The translations under genes and the position numbers were made by a program. A stretch of DNA of 39,627 nt from a virus. Location: positions 1 through 39,627 of IMG/VR virus record IMGVR_UViG_3300010373_000026; one strand, written 5' to 3'. Shown here piece after piece: positions 6,009 to 25,497 of the stretch (position 1 is its first letter; each line of letters begins with the position of its first letter). The notes beneath the pieces were generated by a model. That model saw only the letters and a list, made by a program, of their open reading frames with translations, was not told the DNA's origin and ran no database searches.

Positions 6009-6467
6009 ATGCCGGCCATTCGTAACCCCCGTTATGAACGTTTTGCCCAAGGCATCGCCAAGGGCAAGAGCCAGCACGACGCCTACATTTACGCCGGATA
6101 CGCGCCAAATCAGAAGGCGAAAGACGTGCGGTCGAACGCCGGGAGCCTCGCCCGCAAGCCCGAGATCGCCGCGCGCGTCGCCGAGCTACAGGCAAAGCAG
6201 GCCCAGCGGATCGGCATCACGGTCGACGATCTGCTCGTCGAATTGCAGGAAATGCTGGCGCTGGCCAAGCGGGTCAAGCAGCCGGCGGCCGGCGTCGGCG
6301 CGATCCTCGCCAAGGGCAAGCTTTTGGGCCTGATCGTCGACAAGGCCGAGGTCGAGGGCAGTGTGCGCAAGCCGGCCCGCCGGCCGACGCCAGAAACCCG
6401 CATGACCATGGATCAGTGGAAAGACCAGTTCGCGCCGCAGCACGTCGCCAAAGGTCCGATGCAATGA
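6009..6467 (+). CDS. terS: Terminase small subunit
   Basis: Likely DNA-recognition subunit of the packaging motor (152 aa). The N-terminal region has the organisation of small-terminase HTH domains (NPRYERFAQGIAKGKSQHDA, AYIYAGY, then a helix pair ending LARKPEIAARVAEL). A central helical segment for oligomerisation follows (DDLLVELQEMLALAKRV), then a basic, disordered C-terminus. Its stop overlaps the start of the large subunit by four bases, as expected for terS-terL pairs. It is the first late gene after the divergent regulatory region. Confidence 0.88.
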   Translation: MPAIRNPRYERFAQGIAKGKSQHDAYIYAGYAPNQKAKDVRSNAGSLARKPEIAARVAELQAKQAQRIGITVDDLLVELQEMLALAKRVKQPAAGVGAILAKGKLLGLIVDKAEVEGSVRKPARRPTPETRMTMDQWKDQFAPQHVAKGPMQ

Positions 6468-15417: not shown

Positions 15418-16976
15418 GGATGCTACCCTCCCGCTACCTCAACCCGAGGCCCGCGCAGATTAAGCGGCAGGTCGCCGCCCTTCGGCACGTCAGCGCGCCG
15501 CTCAAGGGCCTGTCGCTCTCGTCGAAACTGACGCCCGGCGACCCGCTTTCGGCCGTTGTCCTCGACAACTGGGTGATCGAACCGAACCGCATTGTAAGTC
15601 GGCCCGGCACCGAACTGGCGCTTACGCACGGCACCGCCCCGATTGAAACGCTGGTGCCGTTCTACGGCTCGCCGAACAAGATCGCGGCGGCGACCGGCGG
15701 CGCGCTGGTCCTGCTCGACAACACTGTGATTTCGTCGGGATGGCTCGGCAACGACTGGTCTTGGACCTCGTTTTCCAACCTGTCGGCGACGAAATACACT
15801 GTGATGGTGAACGGCTCGGCCGGCGTCGTTTCGTGGGATGGCACGACGACGACGGTTGAGACCGTCACGGCACCGGTCGGCGAGGCTTGGATAGTGCCCG
15901 CCAACTTCGACAAAGTGCTGTCACACATGAACCGGCTCTGGTTTGCCGACGCCTCCAATCTGGCGGTCTATTATCTGCCAATCCAGAGCAAGAGCGGCAC
16001 GCTTAAATTCATCCCGCTTAACGCCGTCTTCAAGCGCGGCGGATCGATCCGCGCGCTCTACACTTGGACGCTCGACGGCGGCTTCGGCATGGAGGACCAG
16101 CTTGTCATTTTCTCGACCAATGGCGAGGCGGTCGTTTACCGTGGCCTCGACCCAGACACCGATTTTTCGCTGGTCGGCATTTACCGTTTCGACAGCCCCA
16201 TGTCGAAGCACTCTGTCGTCAACTGGGGCGGCGATCTCTACTGCCTGATCTCGACCGGCCTTGTGCCGATGTCGACCCTGATGCGCGCCGAAAGCGAGCA
16301 ACTCGGCAAGAGCGACCGCGACGTTTTCACGGCCTTTCAAGAGGTGTCGGCGATCCGGCGCGACGCGCCCGGATGGATGGTGATCAACAACCCCGGCGGC
16401 GGGTCACTGATCTGCAACATGCCGCAGGGCGGCATCAACACCTACAAGCAGATGGTCCGCTTCATGCCCAACCCGGTCTGGGCGTCGTGGTCGAACCTGC
16501 CGGCGCGCTGCTGGGGCTGGGTCAATGACCGGCTCTTTTTCGGGTCCGACAACGGCAAAGTCTACGAGATGAGCGCCGACTTTTTGAACGACGACGGCCA
16601 GCCGATCAAGATCGACGTGCAGGCCGCTTGGTCCAATTACGGCACCCCGGCAAACAAGCTTTTCAAGATGATCCTCCCCTATGTCGAAAGCGACGGCGTG
16701 CCGATGCCGTTCATCGATATGAAAGTGGATTACGACCTCTCGCCGCCCTTCAATCAGCCCGACGTTTCGGCCGGCGGCGCTGGCGGCGGCACATGGGACG
16801 TTGCCCCGTGGGACACGTCAGATTGGGGCCTGTCGCTCATCCCCTATCAGAATTGGAGCGGCGTCGGCGTGCTGGGCCGCGTCGGCGCGCCGCGCCTCGT
16901 CGCACTGGTCAAGGATTGCCAGTTCACCCTTAACGGCTGGGATGTCCTTTACGAGACCGGGAGCGTGTTCGGATGA
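15414..16976 (+). CDS. P22 gp10-like tail hub / DNA stabilisation protein
   Basis: A 520-residue beta-rich protein resembling the gp10 family of packaged-DNA stabilisation and tail-hub proteins. The N-terminal motif DPLSAVVLDNWVIEPNRIVS (Asn and Pro/Arg positions) is typical. Repeated blade-like segments follow (TLVPFYGSPNKIAAATGG, KYTVMVNGSAGVVSWDG, HMNRLWFADASNLAVYYLP). The ATG at 15414 is chosen because it makes a four-base overlap with the upstream stop. It likely closes the portal channel and carries the fibres. Confidence 0.85.
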   Translation: MRMLPSRYLNPRPAQIKRQVAALRHVSAPLKGLSLSSKLTPGDPLSAVVLDNWVIEPNRIVSRPGTELALTHGTAPIETLVPFYGSPNKIAAATGGALVLLDNTVISSGWLGNDWSWTSFSNLSATKYTVMVNGSAGVVSWDGTTTTVETVTAPVGEAWIVPANFDKVLSHMNRLWFADASNLAVYYLPIQSKSGTLKFIPLNAVFKRGGSIRALYTWTLDGGFGMEDQLVIFSTNGEAVVYRGLDPDTDFSLVGIYRFDSPMSKHSVVNWGGDLYCLISTGLVPMSTLMRAESEQLGKSDRDVFTAFQEVSAIRRDAPGWMVINNPGGGSLICNMPQGGINTYKQMVRFMPNPVWASWSNLPARCWGWVNDRLFFGSDNGKVYEMSADFLNDDGQPIKIDVQAAWSNYGTPANKLFKMILPYVESDGVPMPFIDMKVDYDLSPPFNQPDVSAGGAGGGTWDVAPWDTSDWGLSLIPYQNWSGVGVLGRVGAPRLVALVKDCQFTLNGWDVLYETGSVFG

Positions 16977-17464
16977 ACATTTCGTTTGCTCCCCTCGACT
17001 TCGACGCCGCCCAGTTTCTGAGCGAGGAAACCGGCATCGATTTTCGCCGCACAGATTTTCGCCATCCCAGCTGGTTTTGCGTCACCGCCCGGCGCGACGA
17101 CGGGTCGATGATGGGCGTTCTGGCGTGCGAATTTAAGACCAGCTTCGACGTGCATTTCTCGACCGCGATCTGCGATCAGCGCTGCATGTCGCGCAAGCTG
17201 TTGTCGACGATCTTTACAGCGCTGTTTTCGCAGGCTGTGCGCATCACGGCGCTGGTGCATCCCGACAACCTGACAGCGGTCGAGCAGACCCGGCGCATGG
17301 GCTTCGTTTACGAGGGCTTCATGCGCCTCGGCGTCGAGGGCACGCGCGACGCGCTCATGTTCGGGATGCTGCGCAGCGACTGCCGGTTCCTGCCCGGTTT
17401 CGATCCCGCCCGCGCTTCGATGCGCCCGCTCAATATTGGGGGTTTCCATGGTCTCCACTCCTAG
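16973..17464 (+). CDS. GNAT-like N-acetyltransferase fold protein
   Basis: A 163-residue protein with GNAT-like features: a central strand (SMMGVLACEF), a helix after a basic turn (CMSRKLLSTIFTALF), and the C-terminal block VHPDNLTAVEQTRRMGFVYE, characteristic of the last GNAT strand/helix (neighbouring residue, then GFxxEG). The acetyl-CoA loop is degenerate (CDQRCMSRKL), so activity is uncertain. It lies between hub and ejection-type genes, where GNAT-like proteins recur in podovirus-type genomes. Start overlaps the hub stop by four bases. Confidence 0.75.
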   Translation: MNISFAPLDFDAAQFLSEETGIDFRRTDFRHPSWFCVTARRDDGSMMGVLACEFKTSFDVHFSTAICDQRCMSRKLLSTIFTALFSQAVRITALVHPDNLTAVEQTRRMGFVYEGFMRLGVEGTRDALMFGMLRSDCRFLPGFDPARASMRPLNIGGFHGLHS

Positions 17465-18590
17465 CCCTCCCAATCCCTACGATCAGGCGTCGGCCCAGCA
17501 ATCGGCCGACCTCTACGGCAGCGCCGCGTCGTCGATCATCAACAATGCCAATGAGACCAACCCCTATGGGTCGGTCAGCTATAACAATATCGGCTACGAA
17601 ACCCTCTATGACGCGAACGGCAAGGCAACCTATGTGCCCCGCTATTCGCGCGACGTGCAGCTGTCACCAGACCAGCAAAAACTGCTGGGCCTCCAGACGC
17701 AGGCGCAGGGCAACGCCGGACAGGCGGCGGTCACGGCAAGCGCCAATCTGGCCGACCAATTCCAGACCAGCCTAGACCCGTCGAAGTGGCAAGCGTGGTC
17801 GACCGGGCAGGCCCCGCAGGACGTGCGGCAGGATCAAGCGCCGACCGACCGCGCGGCGGTGCAAGACGCGATGATGTCGCGCTATAACGAGACCGCCGCC
17901 AAGCAGAACGCCAGCGACGACGCCCAGCTGGCCGCGCGTGGCCTCAACCCGGGCTCGCAAGGCTACGGCAGCGTTGCCGACACCCGCGCCCGGGCGTTCA
18001 CCGATGCGACCAATCAGGCCTATCTGGCGAGCGGCGACGAGAGCCGCGCGGCGCAGCAGGCTTACAATGCGGCCGGCGCGCAACAGTATTCGCAGAACGC
18101 CGACTATGCGTCGTTCCTCAACAACCTGCGGCAAGGCCAGCAGCAGAGCGACACGGCCCTGCGAAACCAGCTGCCAAACGAGGTCGCGGCCCTCATGGGT
18201 ATGGGCCAAGTCACGGTGCCGCAATTCCAGCCTTTCAGCCGGCAGGGCGTCAATTCAGCGCCGGTCGGCCAGTACATGAGCGACGCCTATCAAAACCAGC
18301 TGCAAGCGTCGAATGCGGCCAATCAAGGCATCTTCGGTCTGGGCTCGTCGCTCATCGGCGCGCTGCCATTTTCCGACCGCCGCCTGAAAGACGAGATCGA
18401 GCCGCTCGGCACCACCTTGGCCGGCCTCCCGCTCTACAGCTACCGCTTTAAGGACGGCTCGCCGGCAATCGGCGTGATGGCCGATGAGGTGCGCCAGATG
18501 CACCCCGACGCGGTGCGCCAGCGCGGCGGTTTCGACGTGGTCGACTACGGCCTTCTGCATTCTCGACATCAAGGAGCTTTCCATGGGTAG
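17448..18590 (+). CDS. Ala/Gln-rich virion protein with C-terminal S74-like domain
   Basis: A 380-residue protein. Residues 1-300 are Ala/Gln/Asn-rich and helical, resembling ejection or tail proteins (YGSAASSIINNANETNPYG). The C-terminus carries the mark of the Peptidase S74 intramolecular chaperone: PFSDRRLKDEIEPLG (Ser/Lys dyad context SDxRLK), then AIGVMADEVRQMHPDAV and VVDYGLL. The final helix usual in such domains is absent. ATG 17448 with GGGGG upstream is preferred to a TTG at 17436. It overlaps the preceding gene by 17 bases. Confidence 0.82.
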   Translation: MVSTPSPPNPYDQASAQQSADLYGSAASSIINNANETNPYGSVSYNNIGYETLYDANGKATYVPRYSRDVQLSPDQQKLLGLQTQAQGNAGQAAVTASANLADQFQTSLDPSKWQAWSTGQAPQDVRQDQAPTDRAAVQDAMMSRYNETAAKQNASDDAQLAARGLNPGSQGYGSVADTRARAFTDATNQAYLASGDESRAAQQAYNAAGAQQYSQNADYASFLNNLRQGQQQSDTALRNQLPNEVAALMGMGQVTVPQFQPFSRQGVNSAPVGQYMSDAYQNQLQASNAANQGIFGLGSSLIGALPFSDRRLKDEIEPLGTTLAGLPLYSYRFKDGSPAIGVMADEVRQMHPDAVRQRGGFDVVDYGLLHSRHQGAFHG

Positions 18591-19794: not shown

Positions 19795-21079
19795 GATTGC
19801 CTCCACCACCTCGGCCGGCGTTCCGGTATCCGACCCGACCGGCGGGATGACCATCGACGCGCTGCTGGCCCGGCAGAAGATGCTGGCCGAGCAGGCCGGC
19901 CAGATTGCCGCGCCTCGGCAGATGATTTCGCCGTGGCAGGGCGCGGCCCAGCTTGGCCAAACGTTCGTCAACCGCCTGAAAGAAACCCAGACCGAGGACC
20001 AGCTTAAGGCCGGCCGCGCGGCGCTGGCGCAAATCATGAGCGGCATTGATCCGGCCAGCGGCGCGACCTCGGCGCAGACCGGCGAGGCCTACCAGATTGA
20101 CCCCGATCTTGGCCTTAAGCTGATGGATCAGGCAATTCAGGCGCGCCGGGAGGCCGCCGCCCAGCAGCTGCACCAGAGCGAGCGCACGCAGGACCGGCAG
20201 TGGACCGTCGAGGACACCGCCGCCGCCGCCCAGCGTGCCGAGGAAGCCCGCAAAGAGCAGGAAGCTTTCCAGAGCGGCCAGACCGACAAGACCCAGACGT
20301 TTCAGCAGAGCCAACAGGAACGGTCGCAAAAATTCGCCGCCGATCAGGCCGCCGCCGGCCGTGCCAATTACGGCCCAGTCATCACGGGCGACGCGGCAAG
20401 GGCGGTCGGCCTCGACGGCACCAAGAGCTACCAGAAGAACAGCACCACCGGGCAATATGACCCGATTGGCACGGGCTCGGGCGTCACCATCAACACGGGC
20501 GACACCTCGTCGAAGCTCGCCGGCAAGTTCGACGAGAAAGAGGGCGAGGACTGGGCCGGGCTGGTCACTGCCGGCGCAAAGGCCGGCGCGACGATGAACG
20601 ACCTGCAACTGCTCGACCAGCTGGGCAAGGTCGCGCCGCAAGGTCCGGTGCCCGGCTTCATTCAAAAGCTGGTGCCCGGCGCAAGCAGCGCGGGACAGGC
20701 GTTCCAATCCATCGTCAAGCGGGTCGCGCCGACCATGCGCGCGGTCGGCTCGGGCTCGACCTCGGACATCGAATATAACGGCATGCTGGACAGCCTGCCG
20801 TCGCTCGGCAACTACCCCGAGGCAAACCAGCTGATTTCGGGAATGATGAAGGCCAAGGCCGGCCTCGACATCAAGCGCGCCGACATCGTCACGGCATGGC
20901 GCAATGGCGACCTGAAAGACGGCGAGGCGCGCAGCCAGCTTGCCGCCCTCAATCGCCAGTCGATCATGTCGCCGGAACTGGAGGCGCTCATCGCCAACAC
21001 CAAGCGTCCCGACGCCGCGCCGGGCGCTGCGCCCGACGCCCCGGCACCCGGCGGCTGGACTGTGGAGGAAATGCCCTAA
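19787..21079 (+). CDS. Putative internal/ejection protein (430 aa)
   Basis: Role inferred from place and composition. A long Gln/Ala/Glu-rich helical stretch (about residues 95-190, for example DPDLGLKLMDQAIQARREAA and KTQTFQQSQQERSQKF) is followed by a mixed domain (about 230-400, with DEKEGEDWAGLVTAGAKAGA, LDSLPSLGNYPEANQLISGM). Podoviruses eject such proteins with the DNA to build the periplasmic conduit. It overlaps the transglycosylase-like gene by eight bases; its stop shares one base with the next start (TAATG). Confidence 0.75.
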   Translation: MARIASTTSAGVPVSDPTGGMTIDALLARQKMLAEQAGQIAAPRQMISPWQGAAQLGQTFVNRLKETQTEDQLKAGRAALAQIMSGIDPASGATSAQTGEAYQIDPDLGLKLMDQAIQARREAAAQQLHQSERTQDRQWTVEDTAAAAQRAEEARKEQEAFQSGQTDKTQTFQQSQQERSQKFAADQAAAGRANYGPVITGDAARAVGLDGTKSYQKNSTTGQYDPIGTGSGVTINTGDTSSKLAGKFDEKEGEDWAGLVTAGAKAGATMNDLQLLDQLGKVAPQGPVPGFIQKLVPGASSAGQAFQSIVKRVAPTMRAVGSGSTSDIEYNGMLDSLPSLGNYPEANQLISGMMKAKAGLDIKRADIVTAWRNGDLKDGEARSQLAALNRQSIMSPELEALIANTKRPDAAPGAAPDAPAPGGWTVEEMP

Positions 21080-22737
21080 TGGCAACCTTCATCGTCACCG
21101 GCCCAGACGGCAAGCGCTACAAGGTCACGGGCGACGGCACCGCCGACGACGCGCTTAAGCAGGTCCAGCAGCAGGCCGCCCAGCCCTCGACCGCACAGGA
21201 CATTATGTCGACGATCCCCGCCGCCCTGCGGCGCGGGACCGAAATGCTGGCCGGCGCTCCCGGCGACATGAACGCGCTAACCCAGAGCGTCGCCGGCCGC
21301 GTGTCGCGCGCCCTGTTCGGCGACAAGGCGACCGAGACGATGAAATCCTATGTGCCGGTCGGCCTGCGCTCGGAAGGCGTCACGACGCCCGACGTGCAGC
21401 GCACAACCGAGCAGTTCATGGGGCCGAGCTATCAGCCCAAGACGACGCCCGGGAGGTATGTCGGCGCGGCGGTCGAGCAGGTGCCCGGCGCTTTCGCCGG
21501 CCCCGGCGGCAAGGCGCAGAAAATCTTGGCGGCGGTGCTGGGCGGCACGGCCGGCGAGTTCGTCGGCGAGCATACAGACAACCCATGGGCCAAGGCTGGC
21601 GCGCAAGTCGCCGGCACTCTGGCAGGCTTCCACACTCCCGGCCTTGCGCCTGTCCAGTCGGCCCGCGCCGCCGCCCGTGACGCCAACGTTGCGGCGCTCG
21701 ACGCCGAGGGCGTCCCCATGACCGCCGGCCAGCGCACCGGCAGCAAGGCGGCCCAGTATCTGGAAACCGAGCTTGGCGGCTCTGGCTATGGCGATTTCGT
21801 CGACCGCCAGCGGTCGGCCTTCACGGATGCCACCATGCGACGCCTCGGCGAGCCCCCGGGCGGCTCTGCCCTGCCGGAAGACATCACCCGCGCCCGCCAG
21901 AATATCGGCTCTCGGTTCGATCAGCTGGCCGCCACGACGCAAACGCCCTTCGACCAGACGCTGCAAAACCGGCTGCTGCAAACGGCGGTCGACTACGGCG
22001 AGACCGCGCCGGCCGTGGTGCCGGCGGTCAATGGCATGATGAACCGCATGGCCGAACTGGCGGCCAACAATGGCGGCCACCTCACTGGCCAAAACTATCA
22101 GGAAATGACGACCCGGTTGCGCGAACTGGCCGACAAGGCCGACGCGCCGACCGCCGCCGCGCTCGACGATTTCCGCGATACCCTCGACGACGCGGTGCAG
22201 CGCACCCTGTCGGGAGACACCCTGCACCAGTGGCGACAGGCCCGCGCGCAATGGGCCAACCTCAACACGGTTCGGCGGGCGATGACCGGGGCCGGCGTCG
22301 AGGCGGCAAGCGGACAGGTCGACCCGGGCCGGCTGCGCTCGGCGATCACGGGAGGCGGCAACGACGCTTCGACCGTCGCCGAGGGCCGATCTGGCATGAC
22401 CGATCTGGCAAACGCCGGGGTCGGCGTGATGAAAGACACGCCCGGCAACTCGGGATCGGCCGGCCGCCTCGCCGCGCGTGCCATTCCGGCGGCTGCGGCG
22501 GGCATCGGCGGTCACATGCTTTCGGGAGGGGATTGGCCAACTGCGGCGCTGGCGGCGTCGGCGGGCTTGGCTGCGCCTGAGATCATGGGCCGGGCTGTGA
22601 TGTCGCCTCTCGGCCAGTCTGCGCTTTCGGGTCCAAGCGATACCCAGCGCATGCTTTTGGCCGCCCTGCTTGCAGGGCGACCGAGCGCTTTCAATGGTGC
22701 TGGAGGGTCGCCAGCGCCAGCAGGGGGGCGCAGATGA
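21079..22737 (+). CDS. Putative internal/ejection protein with hydrophobic segments (552 aa)
   Basis: Starts at ATG 21079, sharing one base with the upstream TAA; a longer frame upstream is a shadow. The N-terminal 35 residues (MATFIVTGPDGKRYKVTGDG, then a helix) resemble a short beta-hairpin domain found at the start of many phage internal proteins. Two Gly/Ala-rich hydrophobic regions (about 145-190 and 470-520, for example AAVLGGTAGEFVGEH and IPAAAAGIGGHMLSG) could insert in the host membrane. The middle is helical and soluble. Predicted part of the DNA-ejection conduit. Confidence 0.75.
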   Translation: MATFIVTGPDGKRYKVTGDGTADDALKQVQQQAAQPSTAQDIMSTIPAALRRGTEMLAGAPGDMNALTQSVAGRVSRALFGDKATETMKSYVPVGLRSEGVTTPDVQRTTEQFMGPSYQPKTTPGRYVGAAVEQVPGAFAGPGGKAQKILAAVLGGTAGEFVGEHTDNPWAKAGAQVAGTLAGFHTPGLAPVQSARAAARDANVAALDAEGVPMTAGQRTGSKAAQYLETELGGSGYGDFVDRQRSAFTDATMRRLGEPPGGSALPEDITRARQNIGSRFDQLAATTQTPFDQTLQNRLLQTAVDYGETAPAVVPAVNGMMNRMAELAANNGGHLTGQNYQEMTTRLRELADKADAPTAAALDDFRDTLDDAVQRTLSGDTLHQWRQARAQWANLNTVRRAMTGAGVEAASGQVDPGRLRSAITGGGNDASTVAEGRSGMTDLANAGVGVMKDTPGNSGSAGRLAARAIPAAAAGIGGHMLSGGDWPTAALAASAGLAAPEIMGRAVMSPLGQSALSGPSDTQRMLLAALLAGRPSAFNGAGGSPAPAGGRR

Positions 22738-22847: not shown

Positions 22848-22876
22848 AATATAGGCGAATTGAAGCGGGGCTTCAA
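22848..22876 (-). promoter_or_regulatory. Promoter of the antisense membrane protein
   Basis: On the minus strand TTGAAG (plus 22871-22876) lies exactly 17 bp from TATATT (plus 22848-22853), a strong sigma70-like match. The predicted transcript would begin near 22841 and give a leader of about 22 nt. A six-base-pair hairpin (22825-22845) lies in this leader and touches the ribosome site. Confidence 0.6.
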
Positions 22877-24129
22877 TGGTCCTTAAGCGACGCCTCGACG
22901 ACCCAGAGAGCTACGATCCAGCGACCGAGCCGCCCGACCCGTTCGCGCGACCCTCGGCACCGATCGCAAATGCCTCGCCACGGCCTTGGCAGGGGCCGCC
23001 AGCGCGCGGGGCGACCGGCGAGGCTACCAATGCCCCGCCGCCCGATCTGCGCTCTACGCTGGCCGCCCTGCTCTCGCAGGCCTATGGCGGCGACGACCCG
23101 CAAGCGGCGCAGGCGTTTGGCAATCAGGCCGGGGCGGCCGGGGAGTTTCTCCCGCTGCTCGGGTCGATCTCGTCGGGGCAGCACTCGGTCGACGACTTCA
23201 AGCGCGGCGACATGGTCGGCGGCGGCCTCAACATGCTGGGCGCTTTGCCCGAGCTTGCGCCGCTGCTTGGAACGGTCGGCGGCGCGGCCGAGCGTGGCGG
23301 CCTGTCTGCCTTGCGTGGCGCGCCTGCGAACGTCGAGGGGCCGGTGCCTCACGTCGTCGAGGCGGCCGGCAAGTATGCCGACGCGGCCGGAATTCCGGCC
23401 ACGCGCCAAAGCTCCTATGCCGAGGTCAACCCGCGCCGGGCCGGCTACATCGCCAAGGCTTACGACCGCATGCCGCACGATCCCGGCAACCCGAAGGTGG
23501 CGGCCAGCTATCAGGCCCTTGCCGACGAGACCATGGCGCAGTGGAAGGCCCTACAGGACAGCGGCGCAAAGATCGAATTCATGAAGCCCGGGCAGGCCGA
23601 CCCATACCCCGGCGGCCCGCGCGACGCGCTCGCCGACATCCGGGCAAACAATCATCTGTTTGTGTTCCCGAGCGAACAGGGTTTCGGCTCTGGCGCGGCG
23701 GCTGCGGCCGACAATCCGATGCTGGCCGACACCGGCCTAAAGCAGGGCGATCACAACATTCTGGTCAACGACGCTTTCCGGGCCGTCCACGATTATTTCG
23801 GACACGGAATGGAAGGCGCGCATTTCGGTCCTCGGGGCGAGGAAAATGCATGGCAGGCGCACAAGGCGCTGTTTTCGCCCGAGGCGCTCCCGGCGCTCAC
23901 GACCGAGACGCGCGGGCAAAACTCATGGGTCAATTTCGGACCGCACGGCGAGGCCAACCGAGCCAACCCGCGCGACACCATTTTCGCCGACCAAAAGGCC
24001 GGTTTGCTTCCCGCGTGGGCGACGCGCGAGGGCGGCATGCCGATGGCCTATCGCGCGCAGCAGGTCGGAACAGCGGCTGCGCTTCTCTCGGCTCTGGGCC
24101 TCGCCGGCTCGTCGCAACGCAAGGAATAG
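22876..24129 (+). CDS. Internal/ejection-type protein with His-rich enzyme-like domain (417 aa)
   Basis: The N-terminal half (about 1-155) is Pro-rich and then helical and Gly-rich, like other ejected proteins. The C-terminal half (about 165-400) is a compact block I recall as recurring in large phage polyproteins: VNDAFRAVHDYFGHGMEG (H305, H310), EENAWQAHKALFS (E322, E323, H329), and TTETRGQNSWVNFGPHGEAN. The clustered His and Glu positions suggest a metal-dependent enzyme, but no activity is known to me. It starts at ATG 22876, immediately after the antisense promoter. Confidence 0.75.
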   Translation: MVLKRRLDDPESYDPATEPPDPFARPSAPIANASPRPWQGPPARGATGEATNAPPPDLRSTLAALLSQAYGGDDPQAAQAFGNQAGAAGEFLPLLGSISSGQHSVDDFKRGDMVGGGLNMLGALPELAPLLGTVGGAAERGGLSALRGAPANVEGPVPHVVEAAGKYADAAGIPATRQSSYAEVNPRRAGYIAKAYDRMPHDPGNPKVAASYQALADETMAQWKALQDSGAKIEFMKPGQADPYPGGPRDALADIRANNHLFVFPSEQGFGSGAAAAADNPMLADTGLKQGDHNILVNDAFRAVHDYFGHGMEGAHFGPRGEENAWQAHKALFSPEALPALTTETRGQNSWVNFGPHGEANRANPRDTIFADQKAGLLPAWATREGGMPMAYRAQQVGTAAALLSALGLAGSSQRKE

Positions 24130-24138
24130 GAGGCCACC

Positions 24139-25497
24139 ATGCCTTTTGACGGCTCTGGCAATTTCAACCGTGTAAGGAACTGGGTCAGCGACGCGCTGGC
24201 CAACATCAAGATTGTTGCCTCTCGCCACGACAGCGAGGACGACAATTTCGCCGCCGGCCTTTCGCAGTGCATCACCAAGGACGGCCAGACCCAGCCGACC
24301 GCCGACATTCCGATGAACGGCAAGAAGCTGATCAATCTGGCCGCCCCGTCGACCGGAACCGACGCGGCAAACAAGACCTATGTCGACACCGCCGACAACC
24401 TGAAAGCGCCAATCGCCAGCCCGACCTTTACCGGCAAGGTGACGTTGCCGACCGGCGCAGCTGCGGGCGCTGGCCTGCGGCTTCCGGTTGTCACTGCCAA
24501 CCCGACCACGCCGGTTGCCGGCGATGTCTGGCCCGACCTCACCACGGGCGCATGGAAGTATCGGCTCACGGCCTCGACGTTGACCTTTGCGGCGGCAGAG
24601 CTTGCCCAGACTTGGACGGCGCAGCAGACGTTTTCGGCAGGCGTCAACGTCAACGGTGGGCAGGTTTCGATCACCACCACCGCCGGGCAGGCAATCGGCG
24701 TCAGCGGCGGCCCGGCGGCCAACACCTCGGCCATCTTGATCAATTCGTTTGCCGGTGCCGGCAATGCGTCGTTCCTGTCGTTCAACCGCAATGGCGCTTT
24801 CGCCGCTAATTTCGGTATCGACACCGACAACACCCTGAAATGGGGCGGCTGGTCTCTGGGCGCTAATGCCTACAAGCTGCTGACCGAAAACCTCGCCACC
24901 GGCACCTTTGTCGGCGCTTTCACTTGGTCGGGGCAGCAGACGTTTTCGCTCGGCCCGATTGTGCCAACGGCGGCGCTGAATACCAACACGACGCAGGCGG
25001 CAAGCACGGCCTTCGTGCAGGCGGCCAAGCCGATCTTGGGCACGGCGACACAGGCGACCACGTCGGGAACGTCAATCGATTTCACCGGCATTCCGTCGTG
25101 GGCCAAGAAAGTCACATTGGCGATTTCCGCTCTTTCGACGAACGGCTCGTCCAACCCGATGCTCCAGATTGGACCCGCCGCCGGCCCCGAGACCACCGGC
25201 TATGCCGGCTTTACCGGCGCTTCGGCGGGCGGCGTCAATGCCGGCCACAGCAACGGCGCGCTGCTGTCCCCGGCGACCGGCGCAAGCGATGCTCTGATGG
25301 GCGTGGCGACGTGGGCGCTCGTCGATGCGTCGACCAATACGTGGGCGTTCTCATGGGCCGGCGGCGTGTCTTCCGGCTTCGGCCTCGTGGGTGGCGGCAC
25401 CAAGTCGATTGCCGGCCCGCTAACGCAGGTGCGCCTGACGACCGCAGGCGGCACCGCTACCTTTGACGGCGGCAAAGCTGTCATGACGTGGGAGTGA
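24139..25497 (+). CDS. Putative tail fibre protein (452 aa)
   Basis: The N-terminus (MPFDGSGNFNRVRNWVSDAL) and the following NGKKLINLAAPSTGTDAANK, YVDTA and SPTFTGKVTLPTG are typical of tail fibre and collar-type repeats (AxxPTFTG-like). The rest is a Gly/Thr/Ala/Ser-rich beta region with internal similarity (TWTAQQTFSAGVNV versus TWSGQQTFSLGPIV). The C-terminal about 150 residues likely form the receptor-contacting tip. AGGAGG precedes the ATG. Confidence 0.85.
   Translation: MPFDGSGNFNRVRNWVSDALANIKIVASRHDSEDDNFAAGLSQCITKDGQTQPTADIPMNGKKLINLAAPSTGTDAANKTYVDTADNLKAPIASPTFTGKVTLPTGAAAGAGLRLPVVTANPTTPVAGDVWPDLTTGAWKYRLTASTLTFAAAELAQTWTAQQTFSAGVNVNGGQVSITTTAGQAIGVSGGPAANTSAILINSFAGAGNASFLSFNRNGAFAANFGIDTDNTLKWGGWSLGANAYKLLTENLATGTFVGAFTWSGQQTFSLGPIVPTAALNTNTTQAASTAFVQAAKPILGTATQATTSGTSIDFTGIPSWAKKVTLAISALSTNGSSNPMLQIGPAAGPETTGYAGFTGASAGGVNAGHSNGALLSPATGASDALMGVATWALVDASTNTWAFSWAGGVSSGFGLVGGGTKSIAGPLTQVRLTTAGGTATFDGGKAVMTWE

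Follow-up and report, generated by a model that had tools for sequence, protein, structure and literature searches.

Is the histidine-rich domain encoded among the virion genes of this phage an enzyme and, if so, what might it act upon in the infected cell? The domain lies in one open reading frame (ORF) of the window, by which we mean the entire 39,627-base virus record analyzed here, with its terminase (position 6416), portal (7957), and major head protein (13334). A sequence-only reading had drawn attention to a motif block at 23370–24090, likened it to a domain of large phage polyproteins, and suggested a metal-dependent enzyme that would be ejected with the DNA. The block is real: HDYFGHG, EENAWQAH, and TETRGQNSWVNFGPH share one frame, as residues 305–311, 322–329, and 343–357 of a 417-amino-acid ORF, and H305, H310, E322, and E323 are present as named.

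Gene and genomic setting

The whole gene occupies 22876–24129, stop codon included, as delimited by the ORF list, tblastn, and a syntenic relative (L012); all features of the gene and its neighbors given below lie on the plus strand. Upstream is a homolog of a DNA injection protein (21079–22737; 29% identity to MW202496 by tblastn), whose longest ORF begins at 20896 but whose probable start is 21079, and downstream is a virion structural or tail-type protein (24139–25497; phrog_13989, phrog_4900). L012, the closest relative, with 67% amino acid identity over the domain, has a similar gene order with like neighbors on both sides, and the divergence between the two domains (dN 0.27, dS 1.12) indicates purifying selection. 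Given this synteny with a DNA injection protein homolog and the company kept by relatives, the gene is most likely the last of an ejection-protein group in the window phage, and its product would enter the cell along with the DNA.

The first 141 residues (22876–23298) lie outside the alignment of relatives and are unconserved; a proline-rich start is followed by a segment rich in Gly, Ala, and Leu. Searched by itself, this N-terminal part had no match; it is possibly a virion or ejection signal. The enzyme-like domain follows, at residues ~142–392 (~250 residues; 23299–24051), as delimited by profile match, alignment, and AlphaFold model. The domain first proposed is confirmed; its extent is slightly wider than had been supposed. 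Elsewhere in the window, at 16973–18590, a gene for a GNAT-type acyltransferase overlaps one for a virion structural protein with a C-terminus of the S74 (endosialidase chaperone) type; this pair is also present in Sulfitobacter and Rhizobium phages.

A dispersed family with an invariant site

By tblastn, relatives are present in 200 phage records, at identities down to 30–35%, and 187 Mycobacterium phage records have a copy. Four actinobacterial plasmids, 80 viral contigs, and 80 genome contigs supplied further relatives, and 93 diverse sequences were aligned. Profile searches of the window protein returned phrog_3170 only (E 3.6e-19, residues 156–352), which 92 of the 93 relatives match as well. 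PHROGs records no function for phrog_3170, and no link from it to the short early-gene families phrog_7806 and phrog_7131 or to the bacterial copies described below; Pfam, NCBIfam, and PADLOC searches of the domain gave no informative match, and a sequence search of the PDB gave none. The domain is absent from Pfam and NCBIfam and, as had been surmised, has no activity on record.

The alignment bears out the conservation of the His/Glu positions (H305, H310, E322, H329, and E344), with one exception: of the two adjacent glutamates first named, E322 is invariant, whereas E323 varies. Residues invariant in all 93 relatives are Y244 (23605–23607); N298, R302, V304, H305, D306, and H310, on an NDxFRAVHDYFGH helix (23767–23805; codons of H305 and H310 at 23788–23790 and 23803–23805); G321, E322, and H329, on a second helix (23836–23862; codons of E322 and H329 at 23839–23841 and 23860–23862) whose residues are invariant in the long forms; and E344 and Q348, on an ETRGQ helix (23905–23919). 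D306, H329, E344, and Q348 thus join the conserved set. Farther along, Q373-K374 (23992–23997), with F-P-x-D-Q in the short forms, is near-invariant, K374 being invariant wherever it is aligned. Short peptide patterns had been used to fetch the loci, and those lacking each pattern served as the control: here a sequence of the type R-x-V-H-D-x(2,3)-H is kept in 37 of 41 and G-E-x6-H in 58 of 60. Mycobacteriophage and plasmid members, for which tblastn was run with no pattern, have these residues too. The conservation goes far past what chance would give and is not only an artifact of retrieval.

The likeness to large phage polyproteins also proved sound. More than half of the viral relatives (52 of 80) sit in ORFs longer than 1200 amino acids, the polyvalent proteins being 2000–4000 amino acids long; three sampled polyvalent relatives carry LPD22 and ART-PolyVal, and two have DUF7178. 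Relatives with LPD22 and ART-PolyVal possess the two or more domains characteristic of polyvalent proteins, which are likely delivered with the DNA (PMC5512222). The window protein, in contrast, has 417 amino acids, no Pfam domain, and a single recognizable globular domain behind an unconserved N-terminus; lacking at least two disparate domains, it is not itself classed as polyvalent, and the LPD set of Pfam does not include its domain. Iyer et al. (2017; PMC5512222) count 40 uncharacterized LPD domains, seven of them potentially enzymatic, and the present domain could be one of those without a Pfam model. Polyvalent relatives L002, L003, and L005 are annotated "lysin," "crystallin beta/gamma," or "RelA/SpoT," names that probably belong to other parts of these long proteins and are not transferable to the domain.

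Polyvalent company also brings to mind a divergent metallopeptidase that would process virion or polyvalent proteins. Peptidases of the MPTase type are the commonest domain of polyvalent proteins, and an HEXXXH variant is reported (PMC5512222). Yet the residue after the first histidine is Asp in 93 of 93 relatives, at the position of the catalytic Glu of HEXXH or HEXXXH; no zincin fold is among the fold matches listed; and stand-alone copies have S-adenosylmethionine (SAM)-cycle operons around them rather than proteins that such a protease might process. Membership in the zincin-like MPTases was rejected on the Asp, and a peptidase role seems very improbable. The domain might instead have no catalytic activity and serve in the virion or in binding, conserved because folding or ligand binding demands it; this would suit the structural genes that surround the family gene in the window and in mycobacteriophages (in Mycobacterium phage Astraea, gp103 lies among head genes). 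But an invariant polar cluster, together with copies in chromosomal operons and among early genes, does not fit a structural part, and we consider this explanation improbable.

Predicted structure

AlphaFold2 produced confident models of both the window domain (pLDDT 94.2, pTM 0.92) and a stand-alone Streptomyces member (pLDDT 93.1, pTM 0.90), and in both, three successive helices carry the motifs: H305/D306/H310 on the first, E322/H329 on the second, and E344/Q348 on the third. Residue conservation and helix placement together suggest that these consecutive helices, with H305/D306/H310, E322 (and H329), and E344/Q348, most likely form an active site that binds a metal ion; metal catalysis, as first proposed from the clustered His and Glu, is plausible on these grounds. 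PDB fold searches with both models found no chain above noise (E 0.46 or worse). Neither a match to a known non-catalytic fold nor loss of the His/Glu positions thus came up to refute the first proposal. VIA-align gave no chain with Z of at least 2, which seemed unusually low, and the absence of a detectable fold match is therefore to be read with caution. Against viral models, Foldseek returned 21 matches at E ≤ 0.001; most are family members, either large or from phages, and a tail of short podovirus proteins follows.

Two histidines on one helix (HDxFGH) with a downstream Glu also recall the aromatic amino acid hydroxylases (PF00351), and the motif occurs as HDVFGH in bacterial phenylalanine hydroxylases. 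The domain might then be a mononuclear non-heme iron oxygenase of this kind, whose substrate, be it a metabolite or a nucleic acid, would not belong to the SAM cycle. Its HxxxxH and downstream Glu are present and invariant (H305, H310, E322/E344), and a profile comparison with hydroxylases reached a score of 35.3 over 28 columns, shuffles giving 19.6 or less. Hydroxylases also turn up repeatedly among the weak Foldseek matches, and a biosynthetic enzyme would be in keeping with those stand-alone copies that lie in operon-like clusters, some of which include an exporter. The match is limited to the motif, however: nothing is shared beyond the 28 columns (probability 37), superposition is poor (TM 0.16), the Streptomyces model yielded no hydroxylase in the fold search, and the short phage forms, with one residue fewer between the histidines, do not match hydroxylases. 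With no Pfam match either, membership in PF00351 was rejected. The motif-level likeness may reflect convergence on a two-His/one-Glu site, or chance, and we regard a hydroxylase-like oxygenase as unlikely.

Short forms in phages

Short members extend the family into T7-like phages. LKA1 ORF7 (phrog_7806) and AS12 gp05 (phrog_7131) carry N-x2-[FY]-R-A-x-H-D-x-x-H ... E ... D-T-x-G-Q, and comparison of the profiles of the short forms and the window family gave a probability of 96.5 and a score of 67.9 over 139 columns, against 20 or less in 40 shuffles; short phage proteins were also found by Foldseek in BFVD (probability about 0.9–1). In the short forms the His pair is one residue closer (HDxGH versus HDxxGH), E322 is kept, H329 is not conserved, and E344 is replaced by Asp in most.

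The short forms, with HD-x-G-H, and the long ones, with HDxFGH...GE, are reminiscent of HD motifs, and a nucleotide-related gene (adenosine deaminase) lies near some stand-alone copies, so that a phosphohydrolase resembling the HD superfamily, acting on nucleotides or signaling nucleotides, comes into consideration. The HD signature (H...HD...D) nevertheless requires a conserved upstream His, and the best column (201) is His in 63%, with none invariant; nor are HD proteins among the PDB fold matches listed. Membership in the superfamily was rejected, and we judge such an activity decidedly improbable.

In T7-like phages the short forms are early genes: one is the very first gene of phage Issaku and another ORF2 of phi15 (both Studiervirinae). 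The slot of the Issaku gene is that of the SAM lyase in phage T3, and T7 has Ocr there. Genes in this T7-like early slot have many roles beyond anti-restriction, which counts against reading the position as a sign of a SAM- or S-adenosylhomocysteine (SAH)-directed activity. The short homologs and T3 SAM lyase (SAMase, PF23780; Svi3-3, PMC7877911) share the first-gene slot and, as proposed here, SAM as a target, but the lyase has no sequence match to the domain, and the description of SAM lyases is one of GlnB-like alpha-beta trimers with no metal (PMC7877911).

The plasmid members show weak but specific SAM-lyase (PF23780) matches in their N-terminal half (L131:5269–6000, L133:7404–8130), at a constant position and at 18.9 bits or less, below the 28-bit cut-off; compared directly with T3 SAM lyase, the plasmid N-terminus left the match unsupported. 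These matches are confined to the N-terminal part of the plasmid relatives, the domain itself having none, and the domain was not assigned to the SAM lyases. Microbacterium plasmid copies lie near ArdC-like genes, HNH genes, and one restriction–modification gene.

Stand-alone copies in bacterial chromosomes

Stand-alone members of ~230–300 amino acids occur in bacterial chromosomes, where they form three clades in the tree, each with its own gene context. Neighbors were assigned by gene calling and by tblastn with named neighbors, and those of all three contexts are absent at 80 of 80 viral loci.

The first context comprises ~19 loci from Paraburkholderia, a gammaproteobacterium, Streptomyces, Nocardiopsis, Micromonospora, Actinoplanes, and others (for example, L150:7872–12903, L142:2799–6738, and L151:7902–11803). 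Neighbors occur in varying combinations: the PLP enzymes SufS-type cysteine desulfurase and a cystathionine gamma-synthase-type enzyme, homocysteine S-methyltransferase, a class I methyltransferase, AhcY or adenosine deaminase, and a TldD-like gene. This looks like a previously unrecognized, conserved operon for a sulfur/methyl small-molecule pathway; literature searches on the operon, on DUF3293, and on the PHROG names were without result. In Actinobacteria, an exporter or TldD-like gene is often added.

In the second context (Bacteroidetes, Ruegeria, Pelagibius, and BD1-7), an AhcY-like NAD enzyme is beside or near the gene in 8 of 8 loci and DUF3293 in 7 of 8 (L112:6868–8795, L118:6880–9219, L113:7956–10320). 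The unit of AhcY-like gene, family gene, and DUF3293 recurs in Bacteroidetes and Alphaproteobacteria. The third context, at ten Micromonosporaceae loci, is defense-island-like: the family gene has a divergent N6 DNA methylase and a kinase as neighbors and, with few exceptions, a UvrD helicase as well. At L164:5546–12240 it sits between the methylase, the kinase (here Ser/Thr), and a UvrD-like helicase. At another of these loci (L155), the upstream reading frames look like a translated CRISPR array.

Because two separate clades have AhcY-family partners and one has a DNA methylase, we propose a SAM/SAH-related substrate. The SAM-cycle neighbors of the first context could, however, serve only the methyltransferase encoded there.

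A possible role in infection

The explanation that we tentatively prefer, with limited confidence, is an injected, metal-binding enzyme of a widespread uncharacterized family that acts on a molecule of the SAM/SAH pool and so lowers or poisons methylation and restriction. The 417-residue protein would be ejected with the phage DNA into the cell, its three-helix site would bind a metal ion, and the substrate of the enzyme would be a small molecule from the S-adenosylmethionine/S-adenosylhomocysteine pool; SAM-dependent methylation and restriction could then be lowered or poisoned within the first minutes of infection, countering SAM-dependent defense. Several observations point this way: the invariant His/Asp/Glu/Gln set, the three-helix model, membership in polyvalent proteins, the injection-protein neighbor, the early T7-like short homologs, the contexts of the bacterial clades, and the ArdC and restriction–modification neighbors on plasmids.

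A broader proposal, which we hold to be rather doubtful, is that the family as a whole is a new class of SAM/SAH-directed metalloenzyme, structurally unmatched and unrelated to T3 SAM lyase, put to three uses: phage-injected (alone or in polyvalent proteins), immediate-early in T7-like phages, and in a bacterial methyl-cycle operon. As part of this proposal, mobile elements may have taken the domain from such an operon.

Members of one family are found in injected polyvalent proteins, on plasmids, in mycobacteriophages, among T7-like early genes, and in bacterial operons; the literature searched yielded no link between the polyvalent domain, the T7-like early protein, and the SAM-cycle operon. 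Brought together by their common conserved site, hundreds of genes now called "hypothetical" pose a single, testable question of enzymology, for which the bacterial operons supply a concrete list of candidate substrates. Should the substrate be SAM or SAH, phages would have a second, unrelated route against the cofactor of restriction. In metagenome-assembled genomes, some copies of the domain are broken by a stop or frameshift (L104:5845–6813, L119:1556–2665).
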